A stretch of 64,000 nt of DNA from Actinoallomurus purpureus. GTDB lineage: Bacteria > Actinomycetota > Actinomycetes > Streptosporangiales > Streptosporangiaceae. Below are positions 9,048 through 49,351 of this stretch, piece by piece. Under the pieces are notes generated by a model, which worked only from the letters and a program-made list of their open reading frames with translations, made no database searches and was not told the origin of the DNA. How positions within the stretch are numbered: position 1 is the first letter of the stretch; every line of letters begins with the position of its first letter. A program made the translations under genes and the position numbers. The stretch covers positions 186,001 through 250,000 of the forward strand of contig NZ_JAMXMY010000013.1 of assembly GCF_024055795.1 (NCBI RefSeq). Direction: 5' to 3'.

Positions 9048-11045
9048 ATGGCGAGTGAGCCCGTCCTGGGGTTGCGGGACTTCCGGCTGATGGTGGCGCC
9101 GGAGCCGTTCGATCCCGCGGAGGTGGAGCCGTCCGCCGCGTCGGCGACGGCCGGTGCGCGGGCGACGGTCGTGCAGTTCGCGGCGTTGCCGAGCGAGCCG
9201 GACATCGCCCGACTGAAGGCGGCCTACGGGTTGCGGCTGGATCGGTTCATTCCGAACCTGGCCTATCTCGAACGGCTCGACACGGCCACGGCCGACCGGG
9301 TCCGTACCGACTTCCTCGTACGGTCCGTCATCGCGCTCCCTCAGGCGTCGAAGCTCTCCCCGACGCTCCCCGCCTCCGGGCCGCTCGACCTGACGGTGAT
9401 CGTCTTCGAAGACGCGGACGCCGCCGCCATCACGGCGGCGCTCACCGCGATCGGCGCGCACGCCATGCAGGTCCTCGACGACCGGGACATCGGCGGGCAG
9501 CTGCACCTGCGCCTCACGCTGGACGACCCAGGTGGGGTCGCCGAGGCGGCGGCGATCGGCGACGTCATCTGGATTGAACCGGCGCCCGTGTTCACCGACT
9601 TCAACGTCGGCGCCGCGCAGACGAACCAGTCGGGTGACCCGAACCTGGGCACGGTCTGGGCCCGGCACATCACCGGCAAGAACCAGGTGATCGGGATCAT
9701 CGACAACGCCTTCATCGATATGGACCACGGCTTCTTCGCCGACGTCGCACCGAACAAGCCCGGCCCGGGCCACCGCAAGGTGCTCAGAGCGTTCAACGAC
9801 AACCTCGGCGCCAGCGACCACTTCATGCAGGTCGCCGGCATCGCGGTCGGCGACGCCCTCAATAACCCCGGCAAGCACGAAAACCGCGGTGCCGCCTATG
9901 ACGCCAAGATCGTCTGCCGCAGCCGCGGGGACATGGACATCGGGAAGCTCAACACAGGCGCCCTGGTCTTCAGCCTTCAGACCCTGCTGGAGCGGTCGAG
10001 GGAGGTCGGCGCGACCGTCCACAACCTCAGCTGGGGAACCGGTACCGGCTATGACACGGCCGCGCGAAACGTCGACGCATTCACCTTCGACCACGAGGAA
10101 CAGTTGGTGGTCGCGGCCGGCGAGGACACGGGCAAGGGACCGGTGAACCAGCCGCCCGGCATCGCGTTCAACACGATTCTCGTCGCGGCCGCCCAGGCCG
10201 CGCCCAACCACGGATCCATCGGCAGCGGGGTGCCCGGCCCGACGGACGACGGCCGCCGGAAACCGGATCTCACCGCGGTCGGCTGCGGCATCAGCACGGC
10301 GGTGAACCCGAAGGTGCCACCGAAGGTGCTCCCGTTCTACGACACCGGCCCGGTGCCGTGCGCCACCAGCTCCGCGACGCCGCACGTCTCGGCCGCGGCG
10401 GCGCTCGTACGCCAGTACTTCGCGGAGGGCTTCTACCCGAACGGCAAGCCGCAGCTGGACAAGGTGCTGGCCCCGACGGGTGCGCTGGTCAAGGCGGTGC
10501 TGCTCAACTCGACGGTCAACATGGACGGTGTCCCCGGCTATCCGTCGGACGCCGAGGGCTGGGGGCGCATCCAGCTGGACCGGACGCTGTTCTTCGAGGG
10601 CGGTAAGCGCCGGCTGATCGTCTGGGACGTCCCGCGCCGCGCCGGCCTGCGGATGTTCGAGACCCGCTCGTTCCAGTTCCCCGTCGTCAACGAGAGCGAG
10701 CAGCTGAAGATCACCTTCGTGTGGACCAATCGTCCAGCGGCCCCGCAAACCCAGCCTGATGCCCAGCAGAAGCCGCGGAAGCCCACGGTCGATCCCATCC
10801 GGTTCGAAGTGGAGGACTCCAGCGGCAACCTCTATCTCGGCAACGACTTCGACGTCGACAAGGGCGTCTCCAAGCGGGCGGCGGTGAGCCCGGGCCTCCC
10901 GCCGGACATGATCAACAACGTTCAGATGGTCGTGGTGGACCAGCCCGTCGCCGGGACCTGGACGATTCGGCTCCGCCCGTTCCTGCACTTCGAGAAGCAA
11001 GGCTTTGCGCTGGTGGTCTCCGGTGGCGTTCTCAAGGGGGTGTGA
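9048..11045 (+). CDS. Subtilisin-like (S8, Kp43-type) protein, paralogue 1
   Basis: A 665-aa protein. Residues about 40-185 form a propeptide-like region (LDRFIPNLAYLERL, VIWIEPAP). Residues about 200-500 form an S8 domain with the triad in place: Asp219 (IIDNAF), His258 (DHFMQVAGIA, the usual HGTHVAG) and Ser441 (TSSATPHV). The oxyanion-hole Asn of AAGN is Glu359 here. The C-terminal part (residues about 540-665) resembles the Kp43 beta-barrel (LKITFVWTN, NNVQMVVVDQP, GTWTIRLRP). There is no signal peptide, which is odd for a subtilase. ATG 9048 has AGAGGA upstream. First gene of the operon, with two close paralogues directly downstream. Activity is uncertain given the Glu. Confidence 0.85.
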   Translation: MASEPVLGLRDFRLMVAPEPFDPAEVEPSAASATAGARATVVQFAALPSEPDIARLKAAYGLRLDRFIPNLAYLERLDTATADRVRTDFLVRSVIALPQASKLSPTLPASGPLDLTVIVFEDADAAAITAALTAIGAHAMQVLDDRDIGGQLHLRLTLDDPGGVAEAAAIGDVIWIEPAPVFTDFNVGAAQTNQSGDPNLGTVWARHITGKNQVIGIIDNAFIDMDHGFFADVAPNKPGPGHRKVLRAFNDNLGASDHFMQVAGIAVGDALNNPGKHENRGAAYDAKIVCRSRGDMDIGKLNTGALVFSLQTLLERSREVGATVHNLSWGTGTGYDTAARNVDAFTFDHEEQLVVAAGEDTGKGPVNQPPGIAFNTILVAAAQAAPNHGSIGSGVPGPTDDGRRKPDLTAVGCGISTAVNPKVPPKVLPFYDTGPVPCATSSATPHVSAAAALVRQYFAEGFYPNGKPQLDKVLAPTGALVKAVLLNSTVNMDGVPGYPSDAEGWGRIQLDRTLFFEGGKRRLIVWDVPRRAGLRMFETRSFQFPVVNESEQLKITFVWTNRPAAPQTQPDAQQKPRKPTVDPIRFEVEDSSGNLYLGNDFDVDKGVSKRAAVSPGLPPDMINNVQMVVVDQPVAGTWTIRLRPFLHFEKQGFALVVSGGVLKGV

Positions 11046-11048
11046 GCG

Positions 11049-12989
11049 ATGACGAGTGAGCGGCAGGACTTCCGGCTGATGGTGACGCCGGAGCCGTTCG
11101 ATCCCGCCGAGGTGGAGCCGGCGGTGGCGGGTACGCAGGCGACGGTCGTGCAGTTCGCGGCGTTGCTGAGCGAGCCGGACACCGCCCGGCTGAAGGCGGC
11201 GTACGGGTTGCGGCTCGACCGGTTCATCCCGAACCTGGCCTACCTTGAACGGCTCGACACCGCGACCGCCCACCGCGTCCGCGCCGACTTCCTGGTCCGC
11301 GCCGTCATCCCGTTCCCCCAGGAGTCGAAGCTCGCCCCGGACATCCCGGCCACCGGGCCGCTCGACCTGGTAGCGGTGCTGTTCGACGACTCGGACGCCG
11401 TCGCCGTCACGGCGACGGTGACCGCGATCGGCGCGCACGACGTCGCGACGAGCGACGCCCGCGAGATCGGCGGCCGGCTGCGCCTGCGTCTCACCCTCGA
11501 CGACGCGACCAGGGTCACCCAGGTCGCCGCGCTCGGCGACATCACGTGGCTGGAACCGGTGCCCACGATCGTGGACGCGGACGTGCCGTCCGCCCAGACG
11601 ACCCAGTCGGGCGACCCGGCCAACGGCCCGATCTGGGCCCACGACCTGCACGGCGAGGACCAGGTGATCCAGATCATCGAACGGGGCACGCTCGACCTCA
11701 ACCACTGCTTCTTCGCCGGCATCGCCCCGAACACGCCCGGCCCGAACCATCGCAAGGTGCGGGAGCTGTTCAACCCGAACAAGGCCACCCCCCGCGACCA
11801 CTTCATGAAGGTCGCGGGCATCGCGGCCGGCGACCAGATCGGCAACTCCGGCCAGAACCAGGACCGCGGCGGCGCCTGGGCCGCGAAGATCGCCGGCAAC
11901 GATGCCAACCTGCTCCTCGCCCCGCCGGACAAGAATCGTGCCACGCGAAGCCTCCACGAACTGCTGGAGGACGGAAGGGGCGTCGGCGCGACCGTCCACA
12001 ACATCAGCTGGAGCACCAATCTCCGCTACGACACGGCCGCCCGGGACGTCGACGCGTTCTGCACCGCCCGCGAGGAACAGGTGGTGGTCGCCGCCGGCGA
12101 GAACACGGGCGTGAATCCGAAGAACGCGTCGCCCAGCATCGCGTACAACGCTATCTGCGTCGCCGCGGCGAAGGCCGACCCCGACCAGATGTCGCGGGGC
12201 AGCGGCGTGGACGGGCCGTCGCTCGACGGCCGCCGCAAGCCGGACCTGTTGGCCGTCGGCTGCGGCATCAGGACGTCCGTCCTGCCGCCCACGCCGTCCA
12301 CGGGCCCGTACTGCGACACCGACGTCCAGCCCCGGTGCAGCACCAGCTTCGCGACGCCGAACGTGTCGGCTGCGGCCGCGATGGTGCGCCAGTACTTCCA
12401 GAAGGGCTTCTATCCGAACGGCAAGCCACAGCGGGACAAGATCATCCCGCAGCCGTCCGGGGCGCTGATCAAGGCGGTGCTGCTGAACGCGACCGTGGAC
12501 ATGACCGGTCATCCCGGTTATCCGACCGACACCGAGGGCTGGGGGCTCATCCAGCTCGACCGGACCCTGTTCTTCGAGGGCGGCCCGCGCAAGCTGCTCG
12601 TGCACGACGTTCGGCGCGACGTTGCCCTGGCGACGTTCGAGGCCCGCTCGTACCACTTCTTCGTCGAGAACGAGAGCGAGCAACTGAAGATCACCCTCGT
12701 GTGGACGGGCCGGCCGTTGACCGAGGCGTCGCAGCCCACTCCGGATCCCATCCGGTTCGACGTGGAGGACTCCCAGGGGAGCTTCTATCTGGGCAACGAC
12801 TTCGACGTGCCCAACCGGGTCTCCCGGAAGCTGACGACGCGTCCGTCCTCCCCGGCGGACATCGCCAACAACGTCCAGATGGTCGTGGTGAACAACCCTG
12901 TTCCCGGGACCTGGACGATCCGGCTCCGCCCGGCCTTCGCGCTGGCCCCGCAGGGCTTCGCGCTGGTGATCTCCGGCCGGGTCTTCTAG
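11049..12989 (+). CDS. Subtilisin-like (S8, Kp43-type) protein, paralogue 2, probably inactive
   Basis: A 646-aa copy with the same layout as its upstream neighbour: propeptide-like region, S8 domain, Kp43-like C-terminal barrel. The catalytic Asp is replaced by Glu211 (QIIERGTLD), the oxyanion Asn by Glu351 (VAAGENTG), while His251 (DHFMKVAGIA) and Ser433 (STSFATPNV) remain. With two key substitutions it may be a pseudoenzyme that binds rather than cuts. No signal peptide. It starts 3 bases after the previous stop with GGGGGTGTGAG upstream. The first 60 codons closely match paralogues 1 and 3, pointing to tandem duplication. Confidence 0.85.
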   Translation: MTSERQDFRLMVTPEPFDPAEVEPAVAGTQATVVQFAALLSEPDTARLKAAYGLRLDRFIPNLAYLERLDTATAHRVRADFLVRAVIPFPQESKLAPDIPATGPLDLVAVLFDDSDAVAVTATVTAIGAHDVATSDAREIGGRLRLRLTLDDATRVTQVAALGDITWLEPVPTIVDADVPSAQTTQSGDPANGPIWAHDLHGEDQVIQIIERGTLDLNHCFFAGIAPNTPGPNHRKVRELFNPNKATPRDHFMKVAGIAAGDQIGNSGQNQDRGGAWAAKIAGNDANLLLAPPDKNRATRSLHELLEDGRGVGATVHNISWSTNLRYDTAARDVDAFCTAREEQVVVAAGENTGVNPKNASPSIAYNAICVAAAKADPDQMSRGSGVDGPSLDGRRKPDLLAVGCGIRTSVLPPTPSTGPYCDTDVQPRCSTSFATPNVSAAAAMVRQYFQKGFYPNGKPQRDKIIPQPSGALIKAVLLNATVDMTGHPGYPTDTEGWGLIQLDRTLFFEGGPRKLLVHDVRRDVALATFEARSYHFFVENESEQLKITLVWTGRPLTEASQPTPDPIRFDVEDSQGSFYLGNDFDVPNRVSRKLTTRPSSPADIANNVQMVVVNNPVPGTWTIRLRPAFALAPQGFALVISGRVF

Positions 12990-12999
12990 GGGGTGTGCG

Positions 13000-14988
13000 A
13001 TGACGAGTGAGCGACAGGACTTCCGGCTGATGGTGGGACCGGAACCGTTCGATCCCGCGGACGTGGAACCGTCGGCGTCGGTGGTGGCGGGTGCGCAGGC
13101 GACGATCGTGCAGTTCGCGGCGTTGCTGAGCGACCCGGACATCGCCCGGATCACGGCCGCGTACGGATTGCGGCTGGATCGGTTCATTCCGAACCTCGCC
13201 TATCTGGAACGGCTCGACGCGGCGACGGCTGACCGGGTGCGTGCCGACTTTCTCGTACGGGCTGTCCTCTCGTTCCCGCAGGAATCCAAGCTCTCATCGG
13301 AGATTCCGGCCACCGGGCCGCTCGACCTGCTCGCGGTGTTGTTCGACGACTCCGACGCGGCCGCGGTCACGGCCGCGCTCACCACGATCGGTGCGCACGA
13401 CATCGTCACCATCGACGACCGGGAGATCGGTGGCCGGCTGCACCTGCGTTTCACCCTCGACGACGCGACCAGGCTCACCGAGGTCGCGGCGGTCGACGAC
13501 ATCACCTGGATCGAGCCGGTACCCGCGATCGAGAACCTTGACGTCGAGGCCGCCCAGACGATCCAGTCGGGCACCGTCGGCCCGCAGGCCGGCACGATCT
13601 GGGACCACGACCTGCACGGCGAGGAACAGGTCATCAGCATCATCGATTCTGGCACGCTCAATCTCGACCACTGTTTCTTCGCCGACACGCCACCGAACAA
13701 CCCCGGCCCGGGGCACCGCAAGGTGCTTGCGGTGTTCGACGACAGCGGGGACCTCAGGAACCCGGGCGACCCCGCGGACAATCCCCCCGGCGAACACTTC
13801 ATGAGGGTCGCGGGCATCGCGGCCGGCGACGAGCTCGGCAACCCCGGCAATCACCCGCACCGCGGCGGCGCGTGGGCCGCCAAGATCGTCTGCCGCAACC
13901 GCCTCGATTTGTTCAGCAAGAAGCTCCCCAAGCCGCCCAGCCTCCGACAAGCGCTGGAGAAGTCGAAAAAAGTCGCTGCGACCATCCACAACCTCAGCTG
14001 GGCGAACCGCAGGAGCGAAAAGTACGAAACACAAGCCCGGGACGTCGACGCGTTCAGCTTCGACAACGAGGATCAGCTGGTGGTCGCCGCCGGTGACAAC
14101 TCGGGCCAGGGATCGGCGAACCGGTCGCCCGCCATCGCGTTCAACGCGATCTGCGTCGCGGCGGCCAAGGCCCACCCCGACCACATGTCGCGCGCGAGCG
14201 GCGTGGACGGGCCGGTCGACGGCCGCCGTAAACCGGACCTGATGGCCGTCGGCGACGGCATCACCACGGCCACCAAATTGTCTGCACCGCCCTCGGGGCC
14301 GTTCTGCGACATGGCCGGGGGAATAGGCGGCCACACCAGCTGGGCGACGCCCAACGTGGCGGCCGCGGCCGCGCTCGTGCGCCAGTACTTCCAGAAGGGC
14401 ATTTACCCCAACGGCACGCCTGAGCCGCACAGGCGCGTCGACCCGACGGGAGCGCTGATCAAGGCGGTGCTGCTCAACTCGACCGTCGACATGACCGGCC
14501 ATCCCGGCTACCCCTCCGACACCGAGGGCTGGGGGCTCATCCAACTCGACCGCACACTCTTCTTCGACGGCGGCAAACGGCGACTGTGGATGAAGGACGT
14601 CCCGCGCAAGGCCGGCCTGCGGCTCGACGAGAAACGCACATATCACTTCTCCGTCAACGACGAGACCGAGCAGCTGAAGATCACCTTCGTGTGGACCAAC
14701 CGGCCGCCGTCCGAGCCGATCCCGAAGCAGCCCACGGTGCAGCCCATCAGGTTCGAGGTGGAAGATCCCATCGGGAACCTCTACCTGGGCAACGACTTCG
14801 ACGTCCCGGGCGGTGTCTCCAAGAAGGCGACCGCGAGCCCGCGGGTCCCGCCGGACACCGCCAACAACGTCCAGATGGTCGTGGTGAACAACCCCCCCTT
14901 CGGGCCCTGGACGATTCGGCTCCGCCCGTTCTTGAACCGGGACAAGCAGGGCTACGCCCTGGTCGTCTCCGGCGGCCTTCTTCTCTAG
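13000..14988 (+). CDS. Subtilisin-like (S8, Kp43-type) protein, paralogue 3
   Basis: A 662-aa third copy. The triad is intact: Asp216 (SIIDSGTLN), His266 (EHFMRVAGIA) and Ser447 (HTSWATPNV). The oxyanion position is Asp366 (VAAGDNSG); proprotein convertase PC2, an active subtilase, also has Asp at this site, so activity is possible. The C-terminal barrel motifs (LKITFVWTN, NNVQMVVVNN) are kept. No signal peptide. It follows paralogue 2 by 10 bases and precedes the DUF6603-like gene by 15 bases, all in one transcription unit. Confidence 0.85.
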   Translation: MTSERQDFRLMVGPEPFDPADVEPSASVVAGAQATIVQFAALLSDPDIARITAAYGLRLDRFIPNLAYLERLDAATADRVRADFLVRAVLSFPQESKLSSEIPATGPLDLLAVLFDDSDAAAVTAALTTIGAHDIVTIDDREIGGRLHLRFTLDDATRLTEVAAVDDITWIEPVPAIENLDVEAAQTIQSGTVGPQAGTIWDHDLHGEEQVISIIDSGTLNLDHCFFADTPPNNPGPGHRKVLAVFDDSGDLRNPGDPADNPPGEHFMRVAGIAAGDELGNPGNHPHRGGAWAAKIVCRNRLDLFSKKLPKPPSLRQALEKSKKVAATIHNLSWANRRSEKYETQARDVDAFSFDNEDQLVVAAGDNSGQGSANRSPAIAFNAICVAAAKAHPDHMSRASGVDGPVDGRRKPDLMAVGDGITTATKLSAPPSGPFCDMAGGIGGHTSWATPNVAAAAALVRQYFQKGIYPNGTPEPHRRVDPTGALIKAVLLNSTVDMTGHPGYPSDTEGWGLIQLDRTLFFDGGKRRLWMKDVPRKAGLRLDEKRTYHFSVNDETEQLKITFVWTNRPPSEPIPKQPTVQPIRFEVEDPIGNLYLGNDFDVPGGVSKKATASPRVPPDTANNVQMVVVNNPPFGPWTIRLRPFLNRDKQGYALVVSGGLLL

Positions 14989-15003
14989 ACCGGAGGTAAC
15001 CCG

Positions 15004-18000
15004 GTGGCACTGTCCGTGGAATCGCTGATGCTCGAGGTGGGCAAGGCGTTCGCGCCACTCGAGCAACGCCTGCGCGGCGACGAGATCCCCCTGCTGTTCG
15101 CGGAGATCGGGCTGCCGGCGCCCGACATCGTCCTGGCCGCGCAACCCGTCCGCGCCGCGGTGGAGGGGGCCGCCACCGCGCTGTCCGGGCTGCCGCGCTC
15201 GCTGTCGGACCTGGTCACGGCGATTGACGCCCGTGACACCGGCCGGATCGCGGAGTCCGTGGCCGCGGTCGGCTCGTTGATCAAGACCGTCGCCGCCGCG
15301 GTCGATGTGGTGTCCGGCGCGATCCGGGCGGCCGCGGCGGCGGCCGGGCCGAACCGGGGCGAGGTCGAGGCGTTCGCCGGGGAACTGGCCGAGCGGCTGT
15401 TCGGCTTCGCGCTGATCACGTACCTGGGGGACCGGAAGCCGATCGCGGCGAACGTGCTGGAGCTGATCGGCGTCCTCGAGTCCACCCCGATCGCCGCGAC
15501 CCCTGGGGCGCCCACGTACGTGCGCCGGGTGCTGCGCCTGGACCGGGTGAGCGGCTTCCTGCACGACCCCGTGGGCACGCTGACGGAGCTCTACCGCTGG
15601 GGCGGCCCGGACTTCGAGTGGGACCTGCTGCTCCAGCGACTGTCGATCTTCCTGACCACGGTGTCGAACTTCGCTTTCCTGCAATCCGGGCCGCCGCCGT
15701 TCCTGCGGGTCGTCGCCGTGGACATCGGCGAGACCGACGACCCGGTACCCGGCGTGCAGGCCACGCTGCGGCTCGCGGCGAAAGACCACCTCCAGCTCAC
15801 CATGCCGGTCAACGACGCCGTGGCGCTGGTCGCGACGTCCGACGCGGCGATGGACGCGGAGACGGCGGTCAAGCTGCTGCCGCCCGCCGCCCTGCGGGTC
15901 ATCCCGCCGTCCGGTGAGGTACGGGGATCGGCGCGGTTCGGCGTCCAGGCGCCGCCGACCGCCGGCGGCCCGCCCCTCGTCATCCTCGGCACCGCCGGCG
16001 GTTCCCGGGTCGAGGCACGGTCCCTGCACATCACGGCCGGGGCGGACCTCGACTGGAACCCCGCGGAGGGCCGCGCCGAAGGCGGCCTGGTACTGGAGGC
16101 CGCCGTCGAGGGCGGCAAGGTCGTGCTGAACCTGGCGGACGCGGACGGCTTCCTCAGCACGCTCCTGCCGTTCGACTCGATCGAGCTCGACGCCGACGTG
16201 GGGCTGACCTGGTCGAGCGAGACCGGGCTGCGGTTCCGCGGTACGGGCGGGCTCCAGGCCGACATCCCGGTCGACCTGCACGTCGGCCCGGTGGACATCC
16301 GCGCGCTGCACCTCGGCCTCGGGCTCACCGGCGACGGCGTCGCGCTCGAGGCGTCCGGCTCGATCTCCGCCCAGCTCGGCCCGATCGCGGCCGTGGCCGA
16401 CCGGATCGGTGCCGTACTGCGCCTGTCGCAGCCGGACGGTGCCCTCGGGCTCGCCGCCGACTTCAAGCCGCCCAGCGGGGTCGGGCTCACGATCGCCGCG
16501 GCCGGGGCGTCCGGCGGCGGGTTCCTCTCGTTCGACCCCGACCGCGGCGAGTACGCCGGTGCGCTGGAGCTGGAGCTCTCGGACTTCCTGGCGGTCAAGG
16601 GCATCGGGGTCATCACCACCCGCCAGCCCGACGGCTCGCCGGGCTTCTCACTGCTGATCGTGCTGACCGCGGAGTTCCCGTCGGGCATCCAGCTCGGCGC
16701 CGGGTTCACGCTGCTGGCCGTCGGCGGGCTGCTGGGGCTCAACCGGGGGATGAACCTCCAGGCGCTCGTCGAGGGCGTACGGACCGGGGCGATCGAGTCG
16801 GTCGCGTTCCCCAAGGACGTGGTCGCGAACGCGCCGCGGATCCTGTCCGACCTCAACCGGTTCTTCCCGGCCCAGCCGGGCACGTTCCTCGTCGGCCCGA
16901 TGGTCAAGATCGGCTGGGGCACGCCGGCCCTCATCAGCGCCTCGATCGGCGTGATCATCGAGGACCCGGGCGACATCGCGGTCCTCGGCGTGGTGCGGGC
17001 CGCCCTGCCGTCCGCCGACCAACCGCTGCTCGTCATCCAGGCCCAGTTCATCGGTGCGCTGGAGCAGGACAAGTCGCGGCTGTGGTTCTTCGCGAAGCTC
17101 TTCGAGTCGCGCATCATGGGCATGACCGTCGAGGGCGGCATGGGCCTGCTGGTGTCATGGGGCGACGACCGCGAGCTGATCGTCAGCGTCGGCGGGTTCC
17201 ACCCCGGGTTCCGGCCGCCGCCGCTGCCGTTCCCCACACCGGACCGGCTCACGGTGGACCTGCTCAACCGCAGCAAGCAGCTGATCCGGGTGACCGGCTA
17301 CTTCGCGATCACCCCCAACACCGTGCAGTTCGGCGGGGGCATCGAGATACGGCTGGGGTTCAGCTCCTTCGGGGTCGAGGGCCATCTCACTCTCGACGGG
17401 CTGATCAACCGCGACCCGTTCCGGTACAGCGCGCACAGCTCGGGCCACGTGTCGCTCAAGGCGTTCGGCGTCGGCGTGTTCAGCATCAGCCTGGACTTCA
17501 CGCTGGAGGGCCCGGCGCCGTGGCGGGTGCACGGGCGCGGCTCGATCGGCTTCCTGTTCTTCTCCATCTCCGCCGACTTCGACTTCTCGTTCGGCGAGGA
17601 GCTGGCGCTCTTCCTGGCGCCGATTCCCGTACTCCCACTGCTGGTGGCGGAGATCGCCAAGACCGAGAGCTGGGAGGCCCGGCTTCCCGACGGCGGTGTC
17701 CGGACGCTGGTCACCCTGCGCCGGCTCCCCGCGGGCGGTGACCTGGTCCTGCACCCGCTCGGCACGCTTGTCGTACGGCAGCGGGCGCTGCCGCTGGACG
17801 TCCGGGTGGACCGGATCGGCGGGCAGCGGGCGAGCGACGGGCGGCGGTTCAGCCTCACCACGCCGGAGGGCGGCGGGTTTACCCAGAGGTCGGTCATCGG
17901 CGAGAAGTTCGCAATGGCCCAGTTCCAGGACATGTCCGACGCGGCGAAGCTGTCCCGTCCCTCGTACGAGACGCAGGACGCCGGCCTGGAGCTCACGTCC

Positions 18001-20723: not shown

Positions 20724-23700
20724 CCACCAACGCGTACACGTTCCTGCCGTGGCTGCGGACCGGGATCAACACCCGGATCACCGCGGACCCGGGCGCGGCC
20801 GCGCGGGCCAGCGTCCAGATCCCGCTCACCGTGTCCGGCGAGGCGCTCGACGGCGGCACGCTCACCCACGACGCCGGACGCCCCGCGCAGCTGTACGGGC
20901 CGGGCGACGTGGTGGGCGTGGACCCGCGGGAGGTCTCGCGGAACGAGCCGCGCCCGGGCACGGCCAACGTCGAGCCGAACTTCTTCGCGCACATCGAGTT
21001 CGCCGACGAGGACTTCCCCTGGCGCTACAGCCCCGCGCCGTCCGGGCCCACGACCGTGCGGCTCACCCCGTGGGTCGCCCTGGTGGTGCTGGCCACCGGC
21101 ACCGAGTTCACCGACGCGCCCGGCACGGACCCGCTGCCGGCCATCGACGTCACCGACCCGGCCAGTACGATGCCGCCGGCCGACCAGCTCGGCGCCTGGG
21201 CGCACGTACACGTGAACGGCTCGCTCGCCGACCCGGTGGCCACCGACAGCACGGCCGGCGCGCTCGCCGCGCTGAACAACGTGCTGACCGGTGACCCGGA
21301 CAGCGCCTGCGCGCGGCTGATCTGCCCGCGGCACCTGGAACCGGAGACCGCGTACGAGGCGTTCCTGGTGCCGGCCTTCGAGACCGGGCGGCTGGCCGGT
21401 CTGGGCTTCGACCCGGCCGGCGCGCCCAGCGGGCTGTACTCGAGTTGGGGCCCGCCGTACGCGAACCGACCGGTCGGGAACCGCATGCCGTACTACCACC
21501 GCTGGGCGTTCCGCACCGGCACGGCCGGCGACTTCGAGTTCCTGGTGCGCGAGCTCAAGCCGCGGCGGGCCGACGCGAAGGTGGGACGGCGGGAGATCGA
21601 CGTGCACGCCGAGCCCGGCCTCGGCCTGCCCGGCATCGCCGACCAGGGCGGCGTGCTGCCGCTCGGTGGCGCCTTGCGGGTACCGGAGACCGTCGACCCG
21701 GCGGACAACTGGGACCACTTCGCCGATCCGCCGTCGCCGACCCCGCTGTACCCGCACCCGTTCGAGCAGGCGCTGGCCCAGGTGATCAACCTGGCCGACG
21801 ACCTCCAGCACCAGTCGGGCCCGGACCCGATCGTCACGCCGCCGCTGTACGGCCGGTGGCACGCGCTCACCACGCGTCTACTCAACCGCCCGGACGGCAC
21901 CGAGCTGACCGCCGAGGAGAAGCACAACTGGGTGCACCGGCTGAACCTGGACCCGCGGTTCCGCGTCGCGGCCAACCTCGGCGCGCAGGTGGTGAAGGAC
22001 AACGACGAGGCGCTGATGGCGGCCGCGTGGGCGCAGGTCGGCGACGTGCTGGTGGCGAACGGCCGGATCCGCGCCGCCCAGCTCGCCCGCGAGGTGGGCC
22101 ATGTGCTGCAGACCCGGCACCTCGACCTGCCGGCCGGTACGGGGCAGATCGCGGCGGCCGCCGCGCCCTCGGGCCGCGCGCTGACCCTCACTGCCCCGGC
22201 CCACTCCCGCGTCACCACCACCACCACGACGTCGCTGGTGGCCGCGGCGGACAGCGAGGTGGCCGTCGGGTTCCACGTGGCCAGCAGCCGGGTTGCGGCC
22301 GCGCCCGTGTCGCCCGCCATGCGGCGGATCACCCGGCCCGGTTCGCGGCTGATCCGTTCGCTGGACTTCCCGGAGGGCCCGCGGGCGGACGCCCTCCTGT
22401 TCCGCATGGACGACCCGGTCGCCCCGGTCGTGGCCGCCCCGGTCAAGATCACCCCGGGCGCGCTCGTCACTCCGGCCGATGTCAACGCCGCCCTGCACCC
22501 GGACCGGCCGCCCGGTACGGACCCGGTCGACGTCCTCGCGCACAGCCCCGACTTCGTGCTCCGCGCGCTCGGCGACCCGGTCACCCCGCACCCCGGCACC
22601 AGCGACAGCGCCGAGGCGACCCGGTTCAAGGCCGCGCTCCGCGAGCTGCACCAGGGGATCGACGCCGGCGTGGCGGTCGGCCAGGCCCCCCAGGCGCCCG
22701 CGCTCGACCTGATCCCCACCACCGCGGCCACGCTCACCGGCCTGCGGTCCGACACGACGGTGCCGCGCGCGCTACTGGAGGGCGCCGTCAGCCTGCCGGA
22801 GCGCCTGCAGCCCTTCGCGGCCGCGTTCACCGAGGCCATGGCGTACCCGGTGTTCGACATCCCCACGTTCCGGTCGCTGCTCGACCTCTCGGTCGACGCG
22901 TTCGTACCGAACCTGAACTCGCTTCCGGCGAACTCCCTGACGCTCCTGGAGAACAACCACGAGTTCATCGAGTCGTACATGGTCGGGCTCAACCACGAGA
23001 TGGCCCGCGAGATGCTGTGGCGGGAGTTCCCGACCGATCAGCGCGGCACCCCGTTCCGCCAGTTCTGGGACCCGGTGACCGCATTGCCAGAGCCGGGCGT
23101 GACCCCCGCCGAGCGCCGGGAGCGCAACTACGACATCCCGCCGATCCACCTCTGGCGGCCGGACGCGCGGCTCGGGGAGAACGCCAATCCCCGCGATGGG
23201 ATCGTCCTCGTCGTCCGGGGCGAGCTGCTCAAGAAGTACCCGACGACCGCCATCTACGCGCACCGGGCCGAATGGCCGCCTGGCCCGGACGGCCTGCCCG
23301 ACAAGTCCCTGCCGCGCCGCCTGGTCACCATCACCGGCCCGCCCACCACCGAGCAGATCCAGCTGCCCCGCTTCGAGGCCACGGTGGACCCGGACATCTA
23401 CCTGATCGGGTTCGACCTCACCGCCGACAAGGCGGTCGGCGGGCCGGACGACCCCGGCTGGTTCTTCGTCCTGAAGGAACGGCCCGGCGACCCCAGGTTC
23501 GGCCTGGACGACCGGGACCCCGGCCAGCCGGCCGGGCCTATCGAGGTGTGGAACGACCTGACGTGGAGCGACGTCGACCCCGCCGGACGCGGGTTCGTCA
23601 CGCTCGACCCCGCCGTGACCGTACCGCTGGCCGGACTGGACGGGTCCGACGACGCCGAGAAGCTCGACCAGCACAACGAGGACGAGAACCTGCCGCTGTG

Positions 23701-23794
23701 GTTCAGCGGCCTGGGTTCGGCCGACCTCGCCTACATCCTGCTCCAGGTGCCCGTAATGGTCGCCGTGCACGCCCAGGAGATGGTGCCGCGATGA
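20720..23794 (+). CDS. Large orphan protein of the subtilase/kelch operon (1024 aa)
   Basis: A 1024-aa protein I cannot assign to a characterised family. The start is GTG 20720, overlapping the kelch gene stop as GTGA; the frame is open upstream, but only as a shadow of that gene. Visible blocks that look conserved are PNFFAHIEFADEDFPWRYSP near residue 92, RLTPWVALVVL near 115, and a C-terminal half with ESYMVGLNHEMAREMLWREF, PTDQRGTPFRQFWD and YDIPPIHLW. No signal peptide, membrane helix or known catalytic motif is seen. Position in the operon and overlapping starts on both sides imply co-expression in fixed ratio with the neighbouring giants. Confidence 0.75.
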   Translation: MTTNAYTFLPWLRTGINTRITADPGAAARASVQIPLTVSGEALDGGTLTHDAGRPAQLYGPGDVVGVDPREVSRNEPRPGTANVEPNFFAHIEFADEDFPWRYSPAPSGPTTVRLTPWVALVVLATGTEFTDAPGTDPLPAIDVTDPASTMPPADQLGAWAHVHVNGSLADPVATDSTAGALAALNNVLTGDPDSACARLICPRHLEPETAYEAFLVPAFETGRLAGLGFDPAGAPSGLYSSWGPPYANRPVGNRMPYYHRWAFRTGTAGDFEFLVRELKPRRADAKVGRREIDVHAEPGLGLPGIADQGGVLPLGGALRVPETVDPADNWDHFADPPSPTPLYPHPFEQALAQVINLADDLQHQSGPDPIVTPPLYGRWHALTTRLLNRPDGTELTAEEKHNWVHRLNLDPRFRVAANLGAQVVKDNDEALMAAAWAQVGDVLVANGRIRAAQLAREVGHVLQTRHLDLPAGTGQIAAAAAPSGRALTLTAPAHSRVTTTTTTSLVAAADSEVAVGFHVASSRVAAAPVSPAMRRITRPGSRLIRSLDFPEGPRADALLFRMDDPVAPVVAAPVKITPGALVTPADVNAALHPDRPPGTDPVDVLAHSPDFVLRALGDPVTPHPGTSDSAEATRFKAALRELHQGIDAGVAVGQAPQAPALDLIPTTAATLTGLRSDTTVPRALLEGAVSLPERLQPFAAAFTEAMAYPVFDIPTFRSLLDLSVDAFVPNLNSLPANSLTLLENNHEFIESYMVGLNHEMAREMLWREFPTDQRGTPFRQFWDPVTALPEPGVTPAERRERNYDIPPIHLWRPDARLGENANPRDGIVLVVRGELLKKYPTTAIYAHRAEWPPGPDGLPDKSLPRRLVTITGPPTTEQIQLPRFEATVDPDIYLIGFDLTADKAVGGPDDPGWFFVLKERPGDPRFGLDDRDPGQPAGPIEVWNDLTWSDVDPAGRGFVTLDPAVTVPLAGLDGSDDAEKLDQHNEDENLPLWFSGLGSADLAYILLQVPVMVAVHAQEMVPR

Positions 23795-26700
23795 CCGCGC
23801 TCAGCGACGCGTTCCCCGTTCTGCTCGCACCGATGCGGGTCGAGACCCGGTTCACCGCCACGGAACTGCTGGTCCGGGTGTTCCCGGACGAGTGGGCCGT
23901 GGACAAGTTCGAGCCCAAGCCGACCGCCGCCGAGATCGCCGCGGTCGACGCGTACTGGACCGCCCGCTGGGCGGCCGGCGGCCGCGCCGCGCCGCTGGCG
24001 GCCGCCTGGCAGGAGCTGGCCACGCGGATACCGCCGGGACGGGCGGCCTGGCTGCTGCGTGGCCGTACCCCGGCCAACCCGAACGAGGAACCGGCCGGGG
24101 TGGCGGACGACGCCGTGGTGCTGGTCATCCGGTCCGCCACGGCGCCGGCCGCGAACGACCGCCAGCCGTCCGTCACGTACTGGACCGCGGTGTGGCGGGC
24201 GCACGGCGACCGGCTGCGGTTGCGGCGGGCCGACGCCGCGCTCGCCGCCGCCGTCGGCACCAACCGGGCGAACGCCATCCGCGCCAAGCGCCCGTTCGGC
24301 GTGGACGGGGCGCTGACGACCCCGACGGACGACGTGCTGGTCGCGTTCCTGATACTGGCGGCGCCCGCCACGGGCAGCACGGCGACCGACGCCTGGACGC
24401 AGGGCGCCCAGGCCCGCCTGCTGCCGGACCACTTCCAGGTCCTCGGGTTCAACGCCGGCCGGCAGGTGGCGTCGGTGACCGGCACCGCGATACCGGCCAC
24501 GCTCGCCGTGAGCCCGGACCCGGCCGCCGCCGACCAGATCACCGTCAACGAGCAGACCGGCGCCCTGCACGTGCCGGACGCCCTGCGCTGGCTCGTCGAC
24601 TTCGACCGGGCCGTCGCCGTCGGCATGGGCGTACGGATTCCGCTCACCGACGAGATCCGCGGCGGGCTGGAACGACTCGTGGTGCTGGGCCTGCGCGAGC
24701 AGGCGACGCCCACGCAGACGGCGGCCGGCCTCACCGACCTGATCAACCGCCACCTGCGCAGCCCGGACGGGTTCGCCCTGCTGCCGCAGGGCACGCCGAC
24801 CAACAACTCCGAGGTGGTGCCGGCCGGCCAGGACGAGGAGGACGAGGCGGCCGCCGCGCTGCGCACCGCCGGCGGAGCCGCCGCCGCGGCGGCGGGAGAC
24901 TGGACAACCCGGACGGACGGCCGCCAGCTCACCGATCTGCTCGGCCTCGACCCCGGCGTGCTGACCGGCATGCCGAACGCGGACGGCACGGACCAGCGGG
25001 ACGCGCGCGCGGCGAACACCGCGCTGTGGCCGGCAACGTGGGGTTACTTCCTCCAGACGGCACTGCACCCGCTGCTCGGCCCGGACTCGGTCGCCCAGAC
25101 CCGCGACTTCTTCCTGAAGTACGTGTCCGGCCGCGGCCCACTGCCCATGGTGAAGATCGGCCGCCAGCCGTACGGGATCCTGCCCACCACCGCGTTCTCC
25201 CGGCTCACGTTCGCGGACTCGGCGGCACACCGCAGGGCGCTCAACCGGGTGCTGACCGAGGCGGGCAAGGACTGGGCGGCCGCCGCCGCGCAGGTGCCGC
25301 ACCTCGGCGACGGCGCGAGCGACGCGCACCAGCAGCTGCTCGACCTGGTCGCGCTGCACCCGACCTCGGCCGAGTACCACCAGCGGTACGCGCAGAGCGT
25401 CGAGGACCTGTTCAACCGGGAGAACCTCGCCGGGCTGGGCGGCACCGTCCTGTCCACGGTGGACCAGCTGGGGCTGGCCGCCCCGGTTCGGGCCCTGCTC
25501 GCCCGGTTCGGCGCGGACACCGGCCCCGGCCGGGACCCGGACCTGCTGCGCCGGCTGTTCACCGACTTCCAGCAGCCGCTGCTCGCGCCGCTGGTCGACG
25601 ATCGCCCGCTGTCCGAGACCGACCGCATCCGGCCCTACACGACCGACGGTCGCGACTACCTCAGCTGGCTCGCCGCGCTGGCCCGCACCGACCTGAACGG
25701 CATCCGGCTGGAGTCGGGCTTCGCCGAGGGCGCCCGCCCGGCGACACTGCTGTACCTGCTGCTGCGGCACGCGATCCTGCTCGGCTGGGACGACGCCGCC
25801 CGTGCGCTCACCACCGCGGCCGGCCAGCAGACCGGCCCGCCGGTCGACCCGCCGTTCATCCACGTGCACCTGCCCGGGCCCGGCGAGGACGCGTCCAGCG
25901 AGAGCCGCTTCCGGCCGCTGTACTCACCGGCCCCGGCCGTCACCGGCGACCCGGGCCGGCTGCTGGTCGACTACATCCCGTCCGTACTGAACCAGCCCGG
26001 CCCGACGGCGGCGCTCGCCGACCAGGCGCGCGCGCTGGACGTCCTGGCCACGCTGCCGACCGCGCGCCTGGAACGGGTGCTCTCCGAGCACCTCGACCTG
26101 GCCACGTATCGGCTGGACGCGTGGCGGCTGGGCCTGGCCACCGAGCGGCTCGGCGAGCTGCGGTTCGGGCCCGACGGAACCGCGAAGCCCGGCCTGCACC
26201 TGGGCGCGTACGGCTTCCTGGAGAACGTACGGCCGCACACCGCGAACCTGGAACCCGTCACGCTGACGGGTCCGCTCGCGACGGTGTTCGCCGGCAGCCA
26301 GCCGCTGCTGCACGACCCGGAGAACGAGGGCTTCGTGCATGCGCCATCGCTCGGCCACGCCCGTACGGCGGCCGTGCTCCGGGCCGGGTACGTCGCCAAC
26401 GCCGCCCCCGAGAACCCGGGCACGTTCGCGGTGAACCTCACCTCCGAACGCGTGCGGATCGCCCTGTCCATCCTCGACGGCATGCAGCGTGGCCAGTCGC
26501 TCGGCGCACTCCTGGGCTACCGGTTCGAGCGCGGCCTGCACGACCGGCACGACCAGGCCGAGGTGGACCGGTTCATCGGGGCGCTGCGGTTGCGGTTCCC
26601 CCTGCGGGCGAACCGGATCCCGCAGACAGCGGACGCCGAGCCGGACGAGATCGGGCAGGTCGAGGCGAGCAACGTGATCGACGGTCTCGCCCTGGCCCGT

Positions 26701-28989
26701 CACCTGACCCGCGGCAGCGTGTCGCGGACGTACCCGTTCGACATCGAGGGGCTGCCCCGGGCCGACCCGGCGCAGACCGCGGCGATCAGCGCGGAGGCCG
26801 GTCGGCTGCTCGACGCCAACGACGCGGTCGCCGACCTCGCCGTCGCCGAGGCCACGCACCAGGCGCTGGCCGGCAACCCCGAGCGCGCCTCCTCGACCCT
26901 CGACGCGTACGCCAAGGACGGGCTGCCGCCCGACCCCGACGTGGTCCGGTCGCCGCGCAGCGGCACCACGCTCACCCACCGGTTCGGGCTGCGCCTGAAG
27001 GCCGGCCTGCGCCCTGGGAACGGTGACGCTCCCCGCGCGCAGGCAGAACCGGCCGTGGACGACTGGCTGCCGAGCGTCCTGCCGCCGGATCGGTCGGTCG
27101 CCGCGCGGGTCACCTGGACCGACCCGGTCAACGGCCATGCCCAGGAGCACATCGTCACCCAGGATGACGTCGGCCTGGCACCGATCGACCTGCTGTGGGC
27201 GGTACGGCCGGCCGGCGAGGCCGCGATGACCGACCTGGACGACCGGATCATCGGCGTCGTCGTGGACAAGGACAAGCCGCGCCCGGACGCCGAGCTGACC
27301 ATCCGGTACACCGACCGCATCGACGGCAAGGTCACGTTCTTCGAGCTGTCCCCGCTGATCACCGCGCTGCGCACGCTGCTGACCACGGGCCGGCCGCTGA
27401 AGCCGACCGACCTGGTGCCCGCGTCCGGCCCGGTCACCGTCGATCGGACGCTGGACGACGCGGTGACGGTGCCCCGGCAGCGGCCGGTCGCGGTCCGCGA
27501 CTCGCTCACCGAGCTCGGCGGCGACGTGGCCGACCTGCTGGCCGACCTCACCCGGCTGTACCCGCCGGACCCGGCGCCGCCGCGGCGCGACGACATCGTC
27601 CACGGCATCGACACGCTGCTGACCCGCTACGCCCGACTGGTGACCACGGCCGCCGGGTTCGGCATGGTGCGCAGCGGATGGGGCGAGCTGACCGCGTGGC
27701 GGCGCGGAGTGTTCTCCGAGGTGCTGGCCGGAACGGCCGCGACCGCAGCCCGGATGGCGCGGACGCTCGCCCGGGCCGACGCGCTGCTGGCCGCGTACGA
27801 CAAGCTGCCGAAGAACACCCCGGACGACGAGCGGTTCCGCCGCCTGCACGAGGTGGAGCCGCTGCTCACCACCGCACCGGACCCCGACCCGCCGGACCGG
27901 CCCGACCGGTTCCGCAACGCCATCGGCCACCTGCGCGACACGTTCGCGCGGCGCCAGGGCGACCTGGGCGACGTCGCCCGGACCGGCCAGACGACGCTGA
28001 GCGGCCTGCTGAACAAAGTCGGCGACCTGCTGCCGCTGACCGACATCGACCCGGCGGGCCTGGACCTGACCCCGGAGCTGGACAAGGTGGTCGCGTTCGG
28101 GGCGGAGCTGCTGTCCCGTACGCAGGCGCTGCAGACCGAGATCACCCGCCGCGTCGCCACTGCCACGGCCGCGCTGACAGACGCCGACAACGCCGTCACC
28201 GCCCCGGACCGCGCGAAGTCGACGACCGACGCGCTACGCGCGCTGCTCGGCCCGGACGCGCTGGTCGTACCGGAGTACGCGCTGACCGGCGCCCTCGGCG
28301 ACGAGCTGGACGACGCGTTCGACGACAGCGACAAGCTGGTCCGGCACCTCACTCAGGCGCCGATCTCCCGGGACTTCCCGGTCGACGACTGGCTGCACGG
28401 CGTCGCGCGGGTCCGCGAGGCCCCGCGGTTGTGGGAGCGGGTGACGCTGCTCAGCGACGCGCTCCGCAACGACGACCTCGACGAGATCGACGACCAGGAG
28501 CCGCGGCTGCGGCCGATCCAGCTGCCGTTCGTGGCCAACGACCACTGGCTGGCCATGGAACTCAGCCCCGGCGCCACGATCGACCAGGACCGGCTGCTGT
28601 TCACCGCGCACTACGCCGACACCCCGCCCCGCGGGTCGGGGCCCGCGAGCGGCCTACTGTTCGACGAGTGGACCGAGGTCCTGCCGACCGACCGGGAGGC
28701 GACCGGGATCGCCGTGCACGCCGACAGTCCGGACTCCGAGCCCCCACAGAGCATGCTGCTCGTCGTACCGCCGGTCCGTACCGGATCGTGGCAGGTGGAC
28801 GACCTCGTCGCGGCGGTCACCGAGACGTTCGACCTGGCCCGTACGCGACTGGTGGAGCCCGCGCAGCTCGACGGCACCGGCTACGCGCAACTGCTGCCCG
28901 CGACCGTCCTGTCCGCGACCCACCAACCCATCACGATCAGCACCGACCTCGCCGTCGCCAACGCAAGGTGGAAGGCCGACCATGAGTGA
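23791..28989 (+). CDS. Giant orphan protein of the subtilase/kelch operon (1732 aa)
   Basis: A 1732-aa protein, Ala/Leu/Asp-rich, with no family I recognise. ATG 23791 overlaps the previous stop as ATGA; the frame continues open for over 2 kb upstream, but that part is antisense-like shadow of the neighbour. Distinct stretches are FPVLLAPMRVETRF at the N-terminus, an acidic and alanine-rich linker near residues 348-365, and GYFLQTALHPLLGP with MVKIGRQPYGILPTT near 420-465. The C-terminal third is rich in long helices. No signal peptide or membrane segment is seen. It ends 8 bases inside the next gene. Confidence 0.75.
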   Translation: MTALSDAFPVLLAPMRVETRFTATELLVRVFPDEWAVDKFEPKPTAAEIAAVDAYWTARWAAGGRAAPLAAAWQELATRIPPGRAAWLLRGRTPANPNEEPAGVADDAVVLVIRSATAPAANDRQPSVTYWTAVWRAHGDRLRLRRADAALAAAVGTNRANAIRAKRPFGVDGALTTPTDDVLVAFLILAAPATGSTATDAWTQGAQARLLPDHFQVLGFNAGRQVASVTGTAIPATLAVSPDPAAADQITVNEQTGALHVPDALRWLVDFDRAVAVGMGVRIPLTDEIRGGLERLVVLGLREQATPTQTAAGLTDLINRHLRSPDGFALLPQGTPTNNSEVVPAGQDEEDEAAAALRTAGGAAAAAAGDWTTRTDGRQLTDLLGLDPGVLTGMPNADGTDQRDARAANTALWPATWGYFLQTALHPLLGPDSVAQTRDFFLKYVSGRGPLPMVKIGRQPYGILPTTAFSRLTFADSAAHRRALNRVLTEAGKDWAAAAAQVPHLGDGASDAHQQLLDLVALHPTSAEYHQRYAQSVEDLFNRENLAGLGGTVLSTVDQLGLAAPVRALLARFGADTGPGRDPDLLRRLFTDFQQPLLAPLVDDRPLSETDRIRPYTTDGRDYLSWLAALARTDLNGIRLESGFAEGARPATLLYLLLRHAILLGWDDAARALTTAAGQQTGPPVDPPFIHVHLPGPGEDASSESRFRPLYSPAPAVTGDPGRLLVDYIPSVLNQPGPTAALADQARALDVLATLPTARLERVLSEHLDLATYRLDAWRLGLATERLGELRFGPDGTAKPGLHLGAYGFLENVRPHTANLEPVTLTGPLATVFAGSQPLLHDPENEGFVHAPSLGHARTAAVLRAGYVANAAPENPGTFAVNLTSERVRIALSILDGMQRGQSLGALLGYRFERGLHDRHDQAEVDRFIGALRLRFPLRANRIPQTADAEPDEIGQVEASNVIDGLALARHLTRGSVSRTYPFDIEGLPRADPAQTAAISAEAGRLLDANDAVADLAVAEATHQALAGNPERASSTLDAYAKDGLPPDPDVVRSPRSGTTLTHRFGLRLKAGLRPGNGDAPRAQAEPAVDDWLPSVLPPDRSVAARVTWTDPVNGHAQEHIVTQDDVGLAPIDLLWAVRPAGEAAMTDLDDRIIGVVVDKDKPRPDAELTIRYTDRIDGKVTFFELSPLITALRTLLTTGRPLKPTDLVPASGPVTVDRTLDDAVTVPRQRPVAVRDSLTELGGDVADLLADLTRLYPPDPAPPRRDDIVHGIDTLLTRYARLVTTAAGFGMVRSGWGELTAWRRGVFSEVLAGTAATAARMARTLARADALLAAYDKLPKNTPDDERFRRLHEVEPLLTTAPDPDPPDRPDRFRNAIGHLRDTFARRQGDLGDVARTGQTTLSGLLNKVGDLLPLTDIDPAGLDLTPELDKVVAFGAELLSRTQALQTEITRRVATATAALTDADNAVTAPDRAKSTTDALRALLGPDALVVPEYALTGALGDELDDAFDDSDKLVRHLTQAPISRDFPVDDWLHGVARVREAPRLWERVTLLSDALRNDDLDEIDDQEPRLRPIQLPFVANDHWLAMELSPGATIDQDRLLFTAHYADTPPRGSGPASGLLFDEWTEVLPTDREATGIAVHADSPDSEPPQSMLLVVPPVRTGSWQVDDLVAAVTETFDLARTRLVEPAQLDGTGYAQLLPATVLSATHQPITISTDLAVANARWKADHE

Positions 28990-30769
28990 GCCCCGAATCG
29001 CGGATCTCCCCGCGGCGCTGGCCCATCGCGACTTCCCCACGGTGGGCCTGTGGAACCGCCTTGAGGGACGTCCCCGCACCACCGACTTCGCCCGCGCGTT
29101 GCGGGCCGAGGTCCGTGACCCGCTGTGGCTGCTGGCCCGGCAGTGGCAGCTCGGCGAGTTCCGCGCCACCGACGGCGGCTCGCCGGTGACGGCCACGTAC
29201 TCGGTCGTCGCCGGTCCGCTCACCCGATTCCGCCCGGACGCCGACCCGGCGGGCCCGGCGGGCCCGCTTCCCGCCGGCCGCCCGCTGGAGACGGTGGTGG
29301 AACGGCGGCCGCTGCCGTTCGCGTTCGGCACCGAGCCGATCGCGTTCGACCTGCGGCTGTCGCTCGGCCGCCGCTGGCTGAAGCTCGTCGCCGGCTCCTC
29401 GGTCGCCAACCGGCGCGGCGTCGCCGGGCAGTACCTCGCCCGCTATCCCATCGCCCTGCCCGACCCGACCGCCGATGCCCGGGTCGCGCATCAGGAGGTG
29501 TGGGCGGGCATTCAGGCGGTGGCCGGTCGGCGGATGGACGGCTACCTGCTGTATCAGCACATCAAGGGCGGTGGGCCGGCCTCCGACGGCATCACCGGGC
29601 TGAAGAAGCAGGACCGCGACGCCCTCAACGCCCTCGGCACCCGCCTGACCGCCTGGTTCGACCAGCTCATCGACCAGCCCACCGCGGCGACCGCGTGGGA
29701 CCCGCGCCGGCTGGAGCACCGCTTCTCCGTCGCCACGGCGACGCCCGGCGGCGAGACGGTGCTGTCCGCCCCGGAGTATCCGGGCGGCGAGCTGGACTGG
29801 CACGCGTTCTCGGCGTCCCCAGGCGACACCCTCGGCGGCGCCGGAACCGCGCCGGCCGCGCTGAACCGTACGGTGTTCCCCACGCCGACGAGGTTCGCTG
29901 GCATGCCGCTGCCGCGCTGGTGGGCGGTCGAGGACGGCAGCACCAACTTCGCCGCGGTGACACCGGACAGCACCGACCTGGCCCGGCTCATCTTCCTCGA
30001 GTTCGCGCTCGTGTACAGCAACGACTGGTACCTGCTGCCGTGCGACGTGCCGGCCGGCACGTTCGCGACGGTGCAGGGGCTCGCGGTGACCGACGTGTTC
30101 GGCGCACGACGCTGGATCACCCCGGCCGGAACGGGCGCCGCGCACGACTGGCAGAACTGGTCCATGTTCACCCTGGGCGACACGGCGGGGCTGCTCCTGC
30201 CGCCCGGCACGCCGAAGGTGGCGAACGGCCCGGGGCTGGAAGAGGTCGCGCTGGTGCGGGATGAGAACGCCAACATGGTGTGGGGCATCGAGCAGACCGT
30301 ACGGATGGCCACCGGCGAGGGCCGGCCCGGCGCAGAGGCAGCCGCCGAGACGCTCGCGTTCCGCCGCCGGCTGCACCCGCCCACGCCGCCGGGCGATCCG
30401 CGCGCCCCGGTCGCCTATCAGGTGATGAGCTCGGTGCCGGAGAACTGGATTCCGTTCATCCCGGTCCACGTCCCCGGCGACGACCGCAGCGTGCAGATGC
30501 AGCGCGCCGCGATGCCGAGCGAGGTCGACGCCACCCCGGTCCCGCCGCGCACCGCCTTGCTGCGCGAGGGCTTCGACGCCGGCCACGCGTACTTCGTCAA
30601 CGAGGAGGAGGTACCGCTCACGGGCACCCGCCTGACCGCCGCGTACAACCGCACCCGCACCCGCACCGGCCAGGTGGTCGTATGGCTCACCGTGCGCCGC
30701 GACACCGGCCGCGGCGGACGCTCCAGCGGCCTGTCCTTCGACCTGCTGACCGACACGTCGCCAGCCTGA
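28982..30769 (+). CDS. Orphan protein of the subtilase/kelch operon (595 aa)
   Basis: A 595-aa protein and the last gene of the operon, overlapping its upstream neighbour by 8 bases. The N-terminal block DPLWLLARQWQLGEFRATDG and a later LEFALVYSNDWYLLPCDVP are striking Trp-rich motifs; I recall similar ones in unannotated bacterial proteins, but no function. The C-terminus has VPENWIPFIPVHV and a beta-rich RTGQVVVWLTVRRDTG. No signal peptide, membrane helix or catalytic motif is evident. The reading direction and overlaps imply it works with the 1024- and 1732-aa proteins. Confidence 0.75.
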   Translation: MSEPRIADLPAALAHRDFPTVGLWNRLEGRPRTTDFARALRAEVRDPLWLLARQWQLGEFRATDGGSPVTATYSVVAGPLTRFRPDADPAGPAGPLPAGRPLETVVERRPLPFAFGTEPIAFDLRLSLGRRWLKLVAGSSVANRRGVAGQYLARYPIALPDPTADARVAHQEVWAGIQAVAGRRMDGYLLYQHIKGGGPASDGITGLKKQDRDALNALGTRLTAWFDQLIDQPTAATAWDPRRLEHRFSVATATPGGETVLSAPEYPGGELDWHAFSASPGDTLGGAGTAPAALNRTVFPTPTRFAGMPLPRWWAVEDGSTNFAAVTPDSTDLARLIFLEFALVYSNDWYLLPCDVPAGTFATVQGLAVTDVFGARRWITPAGTGAAHDWQNWSMFTLGDTAGLLLPPGTPKVANGPGLEEVALVRDENANMVWGIEQTVRMATGEGRPGAEAAAETLAFRRRLHPPTPPGDPRAPVAYQVMSSVPENWIPFIPVHVPGDDRSVQMQRAAMPSEVDATPVPPRTALLREGFDAGHAYFVNEEEVPLTGTRLTAAYNRTRTRTGQVVVWLTVRRDTGRGGRSSGLSFDLLTDTSPA

Positions 30770-47891: not shown

Positions 47892-47924
47892 CCCCGACCC
47901 ATCTCATGCCGAGGGGGAGCACGG

Positions 47925-48161: not shown

Positions 48162-48305
48162 AGCCCGTGGTATCGGGTGAGCTGCGGTGATGCGTGAAAG
48201 TGCAGGTAAGGGCCCTCGATAAGGGTCAGTTGAGCGACGTTCGGCGACGTTACGGGAAGTGGCCGTCGCCCATTCCTCGCCCAGCCCCTGGTCGGGAGCT
48301 CAATC

Positions 48306-49244: not shown

Positions 49245-49336
49245 GGCGGCCTGGGATTTGCTTCACTGTCCTTTGTTGATCGATAATTGCGGCGTTTGAA
49301 CAAGGTCGTCCTATCCAAAGGGCGCGCAACAGCACA

Positions 49337-49351
49337 CCCACGGTGCGTGGG
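49337..49351. terminator. Small hairpin after the DUF2637 gene
   Basis: CCCACG and CGTGGG flank GTG, about 95 bases beyond the DUF2637 stop, in the convergent gap before the HNH gene. A short but GC-rich stem; a weak terminator candidate for either side. Confidence 0.35.

Follow-up and report, generated by a model that had tools for sequence, protein, structure and literature searches.

Tc (ABC) toxin complexes are assembled from giant subunits and beta-propellers together with a separate enzymatic part. Contractile injection systems are found in haloarchaea (PMC3482391). Here we analyse an operon of eight same-strand (+) open reading frames (ORFs) at 9048-30769 of a 64,000-nucleotide stretch of the Actinoallomurus purpureus genome (contig NZ_JAMXMY010000013.1), hereafter the window. 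The operon encodes three subtilisin-like proteins (S1, S2 and S3), a free kelch propeller (K) and four proteins (D, F, G and H) that form a conserved core. We tentatively propose that it is an undescribed modular system in which D, F, G and H serve to carry or deploy an exchangeable enzyme whose gene lies just upstream. From this architecture we infer the function, most likely that of a leaderless assembly that bears an enzyme and acts outside the cell. Constant partners such as F, G and H combined with an enzyme slot are not described in the open-licence full-text papers searched, where we also found nothing on DUF6603, the domain present in D, and its partner system; DUF6603 is a domain label without an assigned function.

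Results

The core genes are conserved in the order D-(K)-F-G-H, with K optional between D and F. An F profile scanned against 84,980 species genomes gave 496 loci, and the best 80 (the most query-like), which span 10 bacterial phyla, were used for adjacency statistics. Genes were called by a simple codon model and labelled with D, F, G and H profiles, and only loci with enough flank were counted. Tabulating gene neighbours, as an earlier sequence-only reading of this DNA had proposed for its orphan proteins, placed D upstream of F in 70 of 71 loci, G after F in 74 of 74 and H after G in 71 of 72, and nothing continues the operon past H in 58 of 67. The median spacing across the fetched loci is -4 bp at D-F, K-F, F-G and G-H, which implies translational coupling. 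Homologues of D, F, G and H are neighbours in other genomes and belong to no known characterised complex, and this conservation supports the view, already taken in that reading, of an undescribed, co-inherited multi-gene system.

Searches from other starting points gave the same picture. When H was used as the seed, G adjoined H in nearly all relatives, and tblastn of F and H against plasmids found relatives in Streptomyces, Gemmatirosa, Rhizobium, Nocardia, Paraburkholderia and haloarchaea. The annotated plasmid records have DUF6603 immediately 5' of F, with G and H on its 3' side, and both plasmid-borne and H-seeded loci agree with the core order of the F-seeded loci. The D-F-G-H block is also present in haloarchaea and Gemmatimonadota. 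Its distribution is patchy: the block occurs in 19 of 169 good genomes of near relatives (11%) and in 12 of 361 good genomes of the class (3%). Among 2.9 million viral contigs, F had no match and H was found in one 4-kb contig; judged by these searches, the D-F-G-H system is not viral.

The core order has an apparent exception in Actinomadura sp. K4S16 (L062, 9765-20186), where F-G-H is intact, D is absent and only the last 70 residues of K are left; this locus marks a natural break point within the block. Another locus (L110) is without H because its contig stops about 1 kb past G. Some individual copies are altered in other ways. On a Streptomyces anthocyanicus plasmid, nothing is left but H and a 73-residue C-terminal piece of G, near IS5 transposases (L007, 19784-21806), and this remnant is a decayed copy of the block. 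A frame change splits F in Gemmatirosa (L008, 19988-23287), and F and G are each in two genes on Rhizobium lusitanum p_3 (L004, 17902-25790).

D matches DUF6603 (PF20248) over all 502 domain positions (E 5e-116; 388.6 bits against a curated cut-off of 27), and Pfam places kelch repeats beside this domain and in K. F, G and H have zero matches to Pfam, NCBIfam or PHROG families, in line with the initial reading, which recognised no family in them, and comparison of their profiles with one another found zero shared domains. The window, at 74% guanine plus cytosine (GC), contains antisense ORFs of up to 1384 aa. Given that long ORFs are cheap at this composition, the status of the operon ORFs as genes rests on their conservation across phyla.

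The gene or genes just upstream of D, which we term the enzyme slot, differ in kind between loci. Classes were assigned from Pfam and profile matches in 67 loci: M64 peptidase (19), trypsin-like (18), S8 (15), phospholipase D (4), galactose/glyoxal oxidase (2), PhoD phosphatase (2), tyrosinase (2), DUF2515 (2) and unknown (3). An M14 carboxypeptidase occupies the slot in one family relative. On the F tree, a quick one with some long branches, the slot class switches at least 27 times, where the least possible is 7 and the shuffled mean is 37; exchange is frequent, though related cores tend toward the same class. Active-site motifs are mostly intact (HExxH-type in 16/19 M64 proteins, GDSG-type in 36/37, HKD in 5/5 and the S8 serine motif in 20/22). 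Enzymes of these families are usually exported by cells. Signal peptides are nearly absent from slot and core proteins, haloarchaea included. One N-terminal domain is shared among slot proteins, and it is confined to the trypsin-like class.

In the window, the slot holds three S8 paralogues, each with a Pfam Peptidase_S8 match (E 1.9e-19 to 3e-24; 70-86 bits against a cut-off of 21.8). The closest solved structures to S1 and S3 are KP-43 and SubHal (PDB 1wmd and 5fax; E about 1e-24 to 1e-27). Both retain the catalytic D-H-S residues. None of the three paralogues keeps the oxyanion Asn, which is Glu in S1 and Asp in S3. S2 retains Ser and His and has Glu at the position of the catalytic Asp (IIE). 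The GC content of the slot genes (0.67-0.70) is lower than that of the core genes (0.74-0.76), in keeping with separate histories.

Binding modules vary by lineage as well. Among the fetched loci, only those of Actinomycetota have K or a kelch tail on D, and all 38 K proteins are homologous to that of the window; outside this phylum the core is complete without either. F carries FG-GAP repeats in Streptomyces longwoodensis, and H carries a lamin-tail domain in Halalkalicoccus. The kelch, FG-GAP and lamin-tail modules look like optional adaptors. The sequence-only reading had envisaged a co-expressed assembly with propellers as part of the scaffold and subtilases as dedicated processing or regulatory subunits. 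Its undescribed, co-inherited system is supported, but the roles given to the kelch proteins and subtilases are not: the kelch modules are absent from complete cores elsewhere, and given that the slot is filled in other loci by unrelated enzymes, non-proteases included, the subtilases are better seen as cargo-like.

Structures predicted for H and D placed neither in a known fold family. The AlphaFold model of H (25 sequences, pLDDT 75.5, pTM 0.69) is a mixed alpha/beta protein with zero matches in the PDB at E<=0.001. The model of D residues 1-1180 (35 sequences, pLDDT 78.1, pTM 0.46) begins with N-terminal helices, after which come about 29 antiparallel strands; most of these have one face that is hydrophobic. 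Along the whole protein, D comprises a helical region (about 1-220), the DUF6603 amphipathic beta meander (about 340-865) and the kelch propeller (about 1180-1516). The solved structures closest to the D model are the pilus ushers FimD/PapC, LptD and ApoB, with TM-scores of about 0.12-0.15; ApoB100 and vitellogenin are among its matches at E 1e-3 to 5e-2. A fold search of this model against viral proteins gave generic beta matches only. Profile searches of the PDB with the four core proteins returned helical-bundle noise but no relatives, so that F, G and H have no solved-protein relatives by this measure; a region of G near its C-terminal third resembles long helical bundles.

A simple hydropathy test found no signal peptide or clear membrane helix in the operon proteins, as the initial reading had it, with a single borderline hydrophobic stretch at residues 867-885 of D (Kyte-Doolittle 2.2). 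The core proteins have no secretion signal in any lineage examined. Neither the operon nor the rest of this genome encodes a tail sheath (PF04984), and Pfam found no tube, baseplate or AAA match among the operon proteins, which bears out the earlier statement that tail genes are missing here.

Comparison with other known systems gave no identity for the operon. A polymorphic toxin system was rejected, given that the enzyme is a separate upstream gene and that the operon does not continue after H in the 58 of 67 loci counted above, and a known anti-phage system was rejected on the lack of any PADLOC model match for D, K, F, G and H. A microcompartment or encapsulin was likewise rejected: there is no BMC or HK97-type match in Pfam and none among the fold matches listed for H and D. 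Pfam assigned no Tc family (TcA/TcB/TcC, SpvB, RHS) to D, K, F, G or H.

The same genome encodes a second, diverged DUF6603 operon on contig C11 (loci L132-L133; 3642-16957 of L132), which is equally undescribed. Its genes are for a 1137-aa orphan, a LamG protein, a metallo-beta-lactamase-like protein, D' and F', with the LamG and metallo-beta-lactamase-like genes upstream of D'. Relatives keep this order, and in a third arrangement D'' and F'' are followed by a relative of the 1137-aa protein. Profile comparisons link D' with D (98.9%, E 1e-17), and the N-terminal part of F, about 280 residues, is distantly related to F' (95.6%, E 1e-8); no counterpart of G or H was found in this operon. Given that D' and F' match D and F while G and H lack counterparts, the D-F pair looks ancestral.

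The gene layout of the window operon is given in Table 1. All ORFs and spacings of the sequence-only reading were confirmed (3-15 bp gaps, 4-8 bp overlaps), as were, by Pfam, its three subtilisin-like paralogues, its DUF6603/kelch protein and its free kelch protein. The gaps are 3 bp (S1-S2), 10 bp (S2-S3) and 15 bp (S3-D), and the overlaps are 4 bp at D/K, K/F and F/G and 8 bp at G/H. A terminator scan 3' of H found none.

Table 1. Genes of the operon, with positions in the window
Gene	Position	Strand	Product
S1	9048..11045	+	S8 subtilase, 665 aa, KP-43-like (PDB 1wmd); enzyme slot
S2	11049..12989	+	S8 subtilase paralogue, 646 aa
S3	13000..14988	+	S8 subtilase paralogue, 662 aa
D	15004..19554	+	Core protein 1, 1516 aa, DUF6603 and kelch tail
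K	19551..20723	+	Free kelch propeller, 390 aa from GTG at 19551; 382 aa from ATG at 19575
F	20720..23794	+	Core protein 2, 1024 aa
G	23791..28989	+	Core protein 3, 1732 aa
H	28982..30769	+	Core protein 4, 595 aa; last gene of the operon

We regard a tRNA call with a four-base anticodon at 29288-29365, within the H gene, as an artefact of high-GC coding sequence. A DUF5997 gene (30865-31248, -) runs convergently towards the end of H. Outside the operon, on the opposite strand (32255-35221, -), is a 988-aa protein in which a right-handed beta-helix is fused with two CbxX/CfqX-like AAA domains. Farther along, a phage-type integrase, an HNH endonuclease and a DUF4041/T5orf172 protein are clustered at 46722-52020, probably as a small integrated element.

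Discussion

The gene content, an order kept across phyla and domains, repeated exchange of the enzyme, lineage-specific propellers and the lack of export signals are direct observations. Our proposal that D, F, G and H carry or deploy the slot enzyme follows from the combination of a constant chassis with an exchanged enzyme of a usually secreted kind, optional binding modules, and the absence of an export signal, an immunity gene and tail genes. In this scenario, the four core proteins would form one large complex, in which the long amphipathic beta sheet of D may meet a membrane or lipid, or form a shell. The enzyme would be loaded onto the particle in the cytoplasm, and the particle could leave the cell by lysis or a non-classical route and bring the enzyme to an extracellular polymer or to the cell of another organism, with propellers and other binding modules selecting the target. 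In A. purpureus, the enzymes would be the three KP-43-like subtilases and the adaptors the two kelch propellers. With somewhat more reserve, we suggest that such operons could represent a new class of leaderless machine, found in many bacterial phyla and in haloarchaea, that places interchangeable enzymes on a D-F-G-H chassis and forms one branch of a wider D-F family.

Several points weigh against this proposal. That the proteins form a complex, and how it is loaded, released and targeted, are inferred, and leaderless proteins are cytoplasmic by default. A universal docking domain was sought in the slot proteins and none was found. S2 may, from its residues, be catalytically impaired, and given its Asp to Glu change and the loss of the oxyanion Asn in S1-S3, subtilase activity is not assured. 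The TM-scores of D indicate a shared amphipathic beta architecture only, not a common fold.

The main rival is an intracellular system, for example in defence, in which a cytoplasmic assembly would have its enzyme triggered in place during phage defence or stress-induced self-destruction, with the propellers as sensors. The lack of export signals in every phylum and the patchy distribution (11% of near-relative genomes, 3% of the class) would fit such a role, and there are weak matches of the PADLOC 'subtilase' model to S1 and S3 only and a very weak match of the phospholipase D slot protein to DrmC. However, the core proteins themselves match no PADLOC model and include no ATPase or nuclease, no sensor was recognised, and to our knowledge no defence effector is known among tyrosinases, galactose oxidases or M64/M14 peptidases; we regard this explanation as unlikely overall. 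We consider it improbable that the operon encodes a dedicated export machine, with D as a conduit of the beta-barrel or usher type, F, G and H as the apparatus and the slot enzyme as its substrate. The constancy of the core beside varying leaderless enzymes is what such a machine would show, and its conduit could be sought in the amphipathic strands of D, whose best fold neighbours include ushers and LptD. But the same core also occurs where there is no outer membrane, in monoderm actinomycetes and archaea, so that a conduit role is hard to accept; there is no ATPase or inner-membrane component, and an usher or outer-membrane barrel was rejected as the identity of D, which has no signal peptide and very low TM-scores.

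Two further possibilities appear remoter. The matches of D to ApoB100 and vitellogenin, and the one hydrophobic face of most of its strands, could suggest a lipid-binding sheet in a lipoprotein-like storage body that carries the enzyme; this is very unlikely, given the low TM-scores, the pTM of the D model and a slot chemistry (proteases, tyrosinase) ill-suited to lipid metabolism. Least probable is that the operon products belong, as component or cargo, to a contractile injection system or a phage-derived particle, despite the similar phyletic spread, leaderless proteins and variable effectors. No sheath, tube or baseplate gene is present in the operon and the core is nearly absent from viral contigs. 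A link to contractile injectors is also unlikely because a sheath gene is lacking from 11 of 16 core-bearing genomes, among them that of A. purpureus, and this explanation is already largely refuted.

Three family-less proteins of about 600-1,700 aa kept from actinomycetes to archaea usually signal an unrecognised machine, and a constant core whose enzyme is exchanged (proteases, phospholipase, phosphatase, oxidases) is a hallmark of delivery or display systems. From this perspective, a set of 'hypothetical proteins' becomes a testable system and possibly a new enzyme carrier.

A related operon within the genome is that on C11, which shares profile-related D'/F' and an enzyme-like gene just upstream of D' but lacks G and H and has a distinct 1137-aa protein. 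As for the enzymes, S1 and S3 align with KP-43 and SubHal across the catalytic and C-terminal beta domains; unlike these, S1-S3 are tandem copies without signal peptides, with the substitutions described above. At the level of the whole system, the operon resembles extracellular contractile injection systems (eCIS/PVC) and polymorphic toxins in having a conserved leaderless core, a variable enzyme module and a distribution over bacteria and haloarchaea. It differs from them in that sheath, tube, baseplate, VgrG, AAA, RHS and immunity genes are all missing and the enzyme is a separate upstream gene. The comparison with Tc (ABC) complexes is one of how they work only, with no detectable sequence relation. 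If our proposal is correct, the operon would represent another way of deploying enzymes, in addition to secretion systems and injectors of the contractile or Tc type.

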